DNA from: Prochlorococcus marinus str. AS9601
GTDB lineage: Bacteria; Cyanobacteriota; Cyanobacteriia; PCC-6307; Cyanobiaceae
Direction of reading: 5' to 3'
NCBI RefSeq assembly: GCF_000015645.1
Contig: NC_008816.1
Coordinates: forward strand, 186,001-250,000
Length of the DNA stretch: 64,000 nt
In this document: positions 51,236 to 53,315 of the stretch, in pieces
How positions within the stretch are numbered: position 1 is the first letter of the stretch
How the letters are laid out: each line of letters opens with the position of its first letter
Translations under genes and position numbers: made by a program
The notes under the pieces: generated by a model
The model's database searches: none
What the model saw: only the letters and a program-made list of their open reading frames with translations
Told to the model about the DNA's origin: nothing

Positions 51236-51817
51236 TTATAGAAATTTAGGTGTTCTGTCACCTTTTAATCTTTTACTTACACTCCTACTATTTTTGAGAT
51301 ACCAACGCCATTTTATATTTTTTGCCTTTGATATGCCAATTCTCGTTGTTTGAATAAGATCTTTTTCTTCTAGAGTGGAGTCTCGTGGAGAAATCCATAA
51401 AGATTTGTTATCAAGAACTTCAAGTGAGTTAAATGAAATGTCTACACTGAATGTTTTAGTTACTAGGCCAGGTCCAGAAGCTAATCTTTCATTCTTGTTA
51501 GATATAAAAACTGATCTTATCAAAACACCACTTGCAAAATTTTCTCTATCAGTAACTATATTTAAACAATGATGAATGCCATAAGATTTGTAAATATAAA
51601 ATGTGCCAGGTTTACCAAATAATGATTTGTTTGATTCAGTCATTTTGCGGTAGCCATGACAGGCCTCTTCTTCCTGTGAATAAGCTTCAGTTTCAACAAT
51701 TATCCCTTTAACTTGATCTATCTCATTATTTTTTTTTATGAGGTAACAGCCTATTAAATCAGGAGCAACAAGTTTAGAGTGCCGATAAAAAAAATTTTTT
51801 GGAAATAATTCTTCTAT
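51236..51817 (-). CDS. mpg: 3-methyladenine DNA glycosylase (MPG/AAG type), start codon non-canonical
   Basis: The conserved domain runs 193 codons: LFPKNFFYRHSKLVAPDLIG, then VETEAY (catalytic-type Glu), CHGYRKMTESN, and FGKPGTFYIYKSYGIHHC, which flips and excises alkylated purines in this family. The first ATG (51643) lies downstream of VETEAY and would remove the catalytic glutamate, so the coding region must begin earlier. Upstream in frame there is no ATG/GTG/TTG before a TGA at 51821-51823; ATG 51841 is cut off by that stop. ATA 51817 is my proposed start. Alternatives are a young pseudogene or a sequence error. Confidence 0.7.
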   Translation of the reverse strand: MEELFPKNFFYRHSKLVAPDLIGCYLIKKNNEIDQVKGIIVETEAYSQEEEACHGYRKMTESNKSLFGKPGTFYIYKSYGIHHCLNIVTDRENFASGVLIRSVFISNKNERLASGPGLVTKTFSVDISFNSLEVLDNKSLWISPRDSTLEEKDLIQTTRIGISKAKNIKWRWYLKNSRSVSKRLKGDRTPKFL

Positions 51818-51984
51818 TGTTCAATATCTATCTAATAACATATTTAGCTGAGAAAAATAATTAAGGCTAATAGTTGATATTGATTTTTAAAAAAAAGTGA
51901 TTTTTTAAATTATTTGAAATTCAAAGGATATGTAAATAAGTTGCTCTTAATAACCTATTATTTAGTAAGAAAGATATTAAAAGT

Positions 51985-52283: not shown

Positions 52284-53315
52284 TTAGTTGCTTCCAATAA
52301 ATGTTTTGTTTACTATCTTTAATAAAAATTTTTTTATTTTAAAGCTTGGATATAAATTTATGATTTTTCTAATTTTCCCTCTCTTTTTGCTATGACTCCT
52401 TACACCAATTAATAAATCATAAATAAAATTAAAAATGTCATCTTTGCTTTCGAATATCCCAACCCTTTGAGGGGAGCCTTTTTTATCCAATAAAGGCTTA
52501 GTTTTTTCATAAGCTATTTTGTATTCAAACCAAGGAATCGATGGCCAAAGATGATGAATGAGATGATAATTTTGTCCCATTATTAATAAATTCATAAATT
52601 TGCTTGGATAAACTCGAGAATTTATCCATTTATTTCTTGATCTAAATGGTCTATGGGGTAAATAATCAAAAAATATTCCTAAAGTGACCCCTACCATTAA
52701 TGCTGGGCCGAACCATAAATTATAAATTAAATTCATAAAGTCAAATTTCAAACCTGCTAATATGATTGTTATGAATATTGATCTTTCAATTCCCCATTGT
52801 AGTAATTCATATCTTCGCCAGAGTTTTCTTTGAAAGAAAAATACCTCATGATAAAAAAATCTTGGAGCAATTAGCCAAATTGGACCAAAAGTACTGACAA
52901 TATGATCTGGATCATTTTTGGGGTGATTTACGTGAATATGATGTTGTAAATGAACTCTAGTAAAAACTGGGAAGCTAAACCCTAACAGAATAGCTGAGCC
53001 ATGCCCCATTGCTTGATTTATCCAAGGAACTGGATGAGCAGCTTTATGACAGGCATCATGAATTACAGTACCCTCAATATGTAAAGCTAAAAAAGCAGTG
53101 GCTACAAGTAAAGGCAAAGGCCAAACACCTCTATACCATTGCCATATGCTAAGAAAAGCGAGAAAATAACCGCCAAAAAATAAACCTAATGTTGGATTCC
53201 AAAAACTTGGCGGATCTACGTAATTTTTAATCTCTTTTTGCCAATTAAATGTTTTTGAAGAATTAGTATTTTTCGTTGTATTTTTACTGGTTAAGTTTGA
53301 AATCGTTTCTTTTAT
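52284..53315 (-). CDS. crtR: Beta-carotene hydroxylase CrtR, start codon non-canonical
   Basis: About 343 residues if initiated at ATA 53315. It hydroxylates beta-carotene toward zeaxanthin in the membrane. The His-box set is complete: HDACHKAAH, HLQHHIHVNH and NYHLIHHLWPS. Codons 53118-53315 encode a membrane-anchor region (WQKEIKNYVDPPSFWNP, then FFGGYFLAFLSIWQWYRGVW) joined seamlessly to the rest, but contain no ATG, GTG or TTG; the first is TTG 53117, which would delete 66 residues including the first helix. An in-frame stop (TAA 53319-53321) bounds the frame. ATA, or less likely ATT 53303, are the candidate starts. Confidence 0.8.
   Translation of the reverse strand: MKETISNLTSKNTTKNTNSSKTFNWQKEIKNYVDPPSFWNPTLGLFFGGYFLAFLSIWQWYRGVWPLPLLVATAFLALHIEGTVIHDACHKAAHPVPWINQAMGHGSAILLGFSFPVFTRVHLQHHIHVNHPKNDPDHIVSTFGPIWLIAPRFFYHEVFFFQRKLWRRYELLQWGIERSIFITIILAGLKFDFMNLIYNLWFGPALMVGVTLGIFFDYLPHRPFRSRNKWINSRVYPSKFMNLLIMGQNYHLIHHLWPSIPWFEYKIAYEKTKPLLDKKGSPQRVGIFESKDDIFNFIYDLLIGVRSHSKKRGKIRKIINLYPSFKIKKFLLKIVNKTFIGSN

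Follow-up and report, generated by a model that had tools for sequence, protein, structure and literature searches.

An invariant AUA codon as the probable start of a DNA glycosylase gene in Prochlorococcus, with AUH counterparts in related picocyanobacteria

The 64,000-nucleotide stretch of DNA analysed here (the window) lies in a Prochlorococcus genome of 1,669,886 bases, assembled as one contig, and carries on its minus strand a gene for a methylpurine/3-methyladenine DNA glycosylase (aag, 51236..51817), which matches PF02245 and comprises 193 codons counted from an ATA, followed by the stop TAA. Conservation in the genus and in the family points to this ATA (51815..51817, minus strand) as the start codon, AUA in the message. 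Read along the minus strand, an ATG (51841-51839) is followed by TTA TTA GAT AGA TAT and by TGA (51823-51821), then comes ACA (51820-51818), and the ATA (51817-51815) leads into GAA GAA TTA TTT CCA AAA AAT TTT TTT. The TGA (51821..51823, minus strand) stands in the aag frame, which it closes 5′ of the AUA, and it also ends a mini-ORF of six codons (MLLDRY-stop, 51821..51841, minus strand) that lies directly 5′ of the AUA and is conserved only in part. A TTG 5′ of aag (51822..51824, minus strand) is out of frame, and its use as a start would need a frameshift on an A/T tract. From stop to stop, the aag frame extends from 51820 to 51236 (194 codons), and the earliest ATG, GTG or TTG in it, hereafter the canonical codons, is an ATG at codon index 59 (51643-51641), beyond the catalytic motif. 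Such an index is unusual, as the first canonical codon of 1228 ORFs from a related genome (G015) has a median index of 4 and a 99th percentile of 35.7. An earlier note on this DNA had placed the ATG of MLLDRY at 51841, the TGA at 51821-51823 and the ATA, preceded by ACA and followed by GAA GAA, at 51817, and had stated that no canonical start precedes the catalytic segment; both descriptions are correct, the next in-frame canonical codon being the one at 51643.

When read from the ATA, the predicted product matches PF02245 over profile positions 2-180 of 181 (5.2e-50, 169.7 bits, curated cut-off 27). Translation from the internal ATG (51641..51643, minus strand), the first in-frame ATG 3′ of the AUA and itself within the domain, would cover profile positions 51-180 only, with loss of positions 1-50 and the VETEAY motif they include; this truncation rules it out as the start of aag, while the recovery of positions 2-180 supports the ATA in that role. 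The closest solved relatives of the product are structures of human AAG (1f4r and others, 1.7e-15), and the motif aligns as iveteay over IVETEAY of 1f4r. The catalytic Glu, E125 in human AAG, is taken here to lie within this motif. By its full-length domain and VETEAY, the product is assigned to the methylpurine-DNA glycosylase family PF02245, the enzyme activity being predicted from these features. Domain and motif are thus shared with the human alkyladenine DNA glycosylase/MPG family, and only the start codon of aag is unusual. For human AAG, the catalytic residue is given as E125 in the available text of one study (PMC5363859).

Conservation within the genus was assessed from the 5′ ends of aag at 150 loci (the 30 best matches, 40 picked by hand from the match list and the best 80 of a second search), many of which come from the same genomes and which give 116 distinct sequences when 90 upstream and 582 downstream bases are compared. 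The gene is present in 168 of 200 genus genomes, and in 63 of 66 when only genomes with a completeness of 90% or more are counted. All 116 distinct sequences carry ATA at the start position and none has ATG, GTG or TTG there. In 103 of them, the 90 bases scanned contain no in-frame canonical codon from which the ATA could be reached without meeting a stop (a stop closes the frame within this distance in 102, and one is open and contains no canonical codon). The upstream canonical codons of the other 13 are not conserved, comprising ten ATG at -8 (one at a contig end), a GTG at -7, a TTG at -2 and a TTG at -25. Across 109 aligned distinct sequences, the codon that precedes AAA ATA is TGA in 77, TTA in 13, TAA in 11, GAA, CGA and GGA in two each, AGA in one and a different codon in the last, so that a stop stands there in 88 and a sense codon in 21; the upstream ATG is kept in 83 and replaced by another codon in 26. 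Because the TGA and the upstream ATG vary and the ATA does not, the ATA is the conserved element of this region.

The weight of this invariance has to be judged against its surroundings. Across the 109 sequences there are no departures from the main codon at the start ATA, versus 4 to 26 at nine other Ile columns, and conservation across the genus is likewise high in the 40 bases that precede the AUA. Since those columns are nearly as constant and those bases conserved too, invariance within the genus is by itself weak evidence, and the genus data alone do not prove selection on the start codon. Two genes at the same loci served as controls for ATG, which begins pyrB in 83 of 83 distinct sequences and gatC in 83 of 83 (5 loci missed). 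The conserved stretch at about 51821-51860 (minus strand) may be a promoter, a leader or part of the control region of the divergent gatC. A promoter scan was uninformative (7 sites, 5.4 expected). A Shine-Dalgarno-like four-base motif at -20 to -4 was found in only 5 of the 109 distinct aag 5′ regions, and no RNA structure beyond that of shuffled sequences was detected at the aag start (z 1.15).

Outside the genus, aag was found in 112 of 121 family genomes searched, and its 5′ end was read in 60 of these 112, from 39 genera (59 sister genomes and one of Prochlorococcus itself, L309); the sample is mostly the better-scoring half of the matches, the lower half, made up mostly of larger genomes with longer open frames, being left out. 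In 24 of the 60, from 16 genera and with L309 included, no canonical codon lies between the in-frame stop and a conserved FF motif, and every one of these 24 has an AUH codon (AUA, AUU or AUC) in that stretch. The AUH codon stands exactly nine codons before FF, as in Prochlorococcus, in 15 of the 24 (13 ATA, one ATT and one ATC, again with L309 included), and elsewhere in the remaining nine. Three members of one genus (g56) have ATC, ATC and ATT at -7. Among family genomes open at -9, AUH occupies this position in 19 of 59, compared with 76 of 844 at the other positions from -20 to -3, an enrichment with p ~5e-7 when calculated as if related genomes were independent, which they are not; a canonical codon occurs at -9 in only 3 of the 59. 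The other 36 of the 60 genomes have some canonical codon upstream of FF and may start there. In a tree built from 71 sequences, with weak deep forks and a bootstrap that had not settled, the lack of a canonical codon is clustered, requiring 12 changes against a shuffled mean of 23.9 (none of 500 shuffles as low). In six genomes (G245, G243, G268, G289, G302 and G311), the complete gene is accompanied by further partial hits to the N-terminal portion of the glycosylase domain, which would be fragments or paralogues.

The frame of a crtR-like hydroxylase gene (Pfam FA_desaturase; 52284..53303, minus strand) is likewise without a canonical start in the window, and its start is placed at ATT 53303-53301. 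At this position, 101 of 103 distinct genus sequences have ATT and two have ATC (8 loci missed). An ATA further upstream (53313..53315, minus strand), earlier proposed as the crtR start, is not conserved, as only 69 of 80 distinct sequences have ATA there and the rest have ATT, GTA, TAT, ATC or TAA (32 loci missed); in-frame stops moreover separate it from crtR in several relatives, for example L095, L127 and L143. The parallel that the earlier note drew between aag and crtR is therefore right in one respect, as crtR also has no canonical start and seemingly uses an AUH codon, and wrong in another, as that codon is ATT 53303 and not ATA 53315. A shared G-to-A change at both starts, offered as the common cause, was refuted for aag, and crtR, with a conserved ATT, needs none. 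In 27 of 28 sister crtR loci, an ATG precedes the first WQ or WK by 18-23 codons (by 22 in 23 of them), and one locus (L337) has no ATG there. The Prochlorococcus ATT sits 20 codons before the first WQ or WK, so that the sister ATG is near it without coinciding exactly. The crtR start probably went from ATG to AUU or AUC en route to Prochlorococcus, with small shifts in the variable N-terminus.

Additional candidates for AUH starts were obtained by scanning the 1228 ORFs of G015 for coding signal 5′ of their earliest canonical codon, where scpA, recF, comB and trmH were followed among 12 listed candidates, and by comparing 411 gene pairs between G171 (first 396 kb) and G015, from which cobS came. 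The scan is coarse, aag and crtR not being among its 12 listed candidates. Each gene was read in up to 30 genus genomes, and the counts for recF, comB and trmH refer to loci, not to distinct sequences. A trmH/spoU-type methyltransferase gene (L400-L428, L490-L519) has ATA in 29 of 29 genus loci, 26 of them without a canonical codon; its 28 sisters show AUH at one position in 16, against 32 of 356 elsewhere, and 21 of them also have a canonical codon. It is a candidate for a second family-wide AUH start. The conserved Ile of ITSxxN was rejected as the trmH start, being kept inside the protein in 28 of 28 sisters, and the ATA seven codons before it is the better candidate. ATT was found in all 30 loci of both recF (L341-L370; 23 without an upstream canonical codon) and comB (L429-L458; TTG or ATG 2 to 7 codons upstream in 14), and the alignment with solved RecF proteins begins close to their N-terminus. 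The corresponding codon of scpA (L371-L399) is ATA in 23, GTA in five and ATT in one of 29 distinct sequences, one of which has an upstream TTG, while that of cobS (L459-L488) is ATC in 25 and ATT in one of 26, with a TTG eight codons downstream in 19; cobS is doubtful as an AUH-start gene. On present sequences, AUH starts look limited to a minority of genes.

The explanation regarded as likely is that aag is intact and translated from the AUA at 51817-51815, and that selection keeps this codon, most likely as a translational throttle. The gene has no usable canonical start, the position of its AUA/AUU/AUC codon is fixed, and the domain is intact from that codon onwards; it is highly probable that ribosomes initiate there. 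A low yield and a dependence on IF3 are what analogy with known weak starts would predict, and the chances are about even that low or IF3-dependent expression is the purpose of the AUA. Mechanistically, the initiator tRNA would decode AUA as fMet through a weak mismatch at the third position, and initiation at AUA, AUU or AUC would be inefficient and opposed by IF3, leaving little glycosylase to be made. Selection would hold AUA in place of AUG since an excess of the glycosylase can be mutagenic and scarcity of the enzyme would be favoured. The presence of AUA in all genus sequences read together with AUH in sister genera suggests such selection against AUG in a DNA-repair gene. In the available texts, IF3 is described as repressing non-canonical starts (PMC5472188), and excess human AAG as raising frameshift mutations in yeast, where catalytically dead AAG is as mutagenic as the active enzyme (PMC5363859). 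The harm of excess would then not arise via excision, and the mutagenic effect of over-expression would give a reason for keeping the protein scarce.

The AUA might instead serve as the start without any regulatory use, as a relic that AT-biased mutation left behind and that streamlined genomes tolerate. The AT-rich sequence, the AUH-type starts of several unrelated genes and the ATT of Prochlorococcus crtR, where most sister loci have ATG close by, are in line with drift of this kind; however, ATG is only one mutational step off and is found in none of the 116 distinct genus sequences, the family prefers AUH (19 of 59) over a canonical codon (3 of 59) at -9, and pyrB and gatC retain their ATG in all 83 distinct sequences. 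A relic is accordingly held to be possible but rather unlikely. The lack of a canonical aag start in the window might also be read as a pseudogene or a sequencing error, and a newly broken gene and a consensus error had both been suggested in the earlier note. Each is refuted by the identical ATA in 116 of 116 distinct sequences, which recurs across many separate genome assemblies, and the full PF02245 domain is retained in a gene that persists in most genus genomes at the frequencies given above; decay or error is hardly conceivable here. Comparison with sister strains, which the note had proposed, found no ATG at the 51817 position in the 116 distinct genus sequences, and of the options it had listed for aag the non-AUG start at ATA is the one supported.

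Two further routes to the glycosylase frame involve the region upstream of the AUA. In one, the mini-ORF MLLDRY is translated as far as its TGA, after which ribosomes reinitiate at the AUA or read through the stop. Of the 116 distinct genus sequences, 78 have an in-frame mini-ORF that terminates directly 5′ of the ATA, and reinitiation at non-canonical codons is reported in the available text of a study on stop-codon-based unnatural amino acid expression systems (PMC4648390), but the mini-ORF is missing from the other 38 sequences, its ATG and its stop are replaced in 26 and 21 of 109, respectively, and in only 2 of the 24 family genomes without a canonical codon does the in-frame stop terminate such a mini-ORF, looked for within 12 codons. 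This route is improbable, and read-through, another option of the earlier note, does not fit the variable codon before AAA ATA (TGA 77, TAA 11, sense 21) or the changed upstream ATG; the mini-ORF may modulate aag expression and is not required for it. The other route, initiation at TTG 51824 in a different frame with a subsequent shift on the A/T tract AAAAAATTTTTTTT that would bring ribosomes into the frame of the glycosylase, is very improbable. The TTG is present at that offset in 77 of 116 distinct sequences (76 if only the farthest codon is counted) with its frame open to the tract, and the tract region reads CCAAAAAATTTTTTTTAT in 87 of 116, yet 39 of 116 do not have this out-of-frame TTG, 38 have no canonical codon whatever in that frame, and the last of the three frames lacks one in all 116. 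Both the TTG and the mini-ORF are absent from 25 of the 116, and an A5T6 or T7 tract near FF is absent in 17 and present in seven of the 24 family genomes without a canonical codon. The mini-ORF and a TTG frameshift may therefore add to expression in some strains, and cannot be the common mechanism.

Start codons of the AUH type are already known, and the picocyanobacterial aag appears to add a new gene to this group; among the titles and abstract openings listed by searches of the open-access PMC literature, none reports an AUA or other rare start for it. According to the available text of one report, S. aureus ccpN, citZ and infC start with AUA and cvfC1 with AUU, AUH codons like the inferred aag start, and in poor medium ccpN, citZ and cvfC1 are expressed at about 10% of the level obtained with AUG, a share that for ccpN can reach 30% in rich medium (PMC13009471). 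The starts of ccpN and cvfC1 are conserved among relatives, as is that of aag, and are seen as translational attenuation, whereas the extended Shine-Dalgarno motifs of ccpN, cvfC1 and infC (PMC13009471) have no equivalent in aag, a cyanobacterial DNA-repair gene. An AUA without a Shine-Dalgarno motif thus does not simply reproduce what is seen in S. aureus. The available texts also describe two AUU genes of E. coli, infC, in which the inefficient AUH start limits translation in the autoregulation of IF3 (PMC5472188), and pcnB, a different gene from aag whose translation is limited by the same type of start (PMC13009471). Streptomyces sigR offers a further non-canonical comparison, as its GTC start is repressed by IF3 and misannotated in genomes, and sigR given a canonical start over-produces SigR (PMC5472188). 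It differs from aag in the codon itself and in encoding a sigma factor that is balanced against an anti-sigma factor, as described in the same text (PMC5472188). The IF3 gene is present in the Prochlorococcus genome, where infC (L489) begins with an ATG directly after an in-frame stop and not with the AUU of E. coli, and nothing thus points to a special circuit involving IF3. This ATG contrasts with the AUU, AUA and AUC starts of infC known in other bacteria.

Gene finders usually accept only ATG, GTG and TTG, and under this restriction genes with AUH starts may be annotated too short, taken for broken or overlooked altogether. Tentatively, and with less confidence than is attached to aag itself, marine picocyanobacteria might possess a set of genes (aag, trmH, crtR, recF, comB, scpA and perhaps cobS) with AUH starts that have no Shine-Dalgarno sequence and are jointly tied to initiation fidelity through IF3 and the supply of initiator tRNA. 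If true, this would constitute a small regulon defined by the start codon alone and overlooked by gene finders. The aag AUA would offer, in a very abundant photosynthetic genus, a natural test of whether the amount of a protein is set by a weak start codon, and of the way in which AUA is recognised when no Shine-Dalgarno sequence is present.
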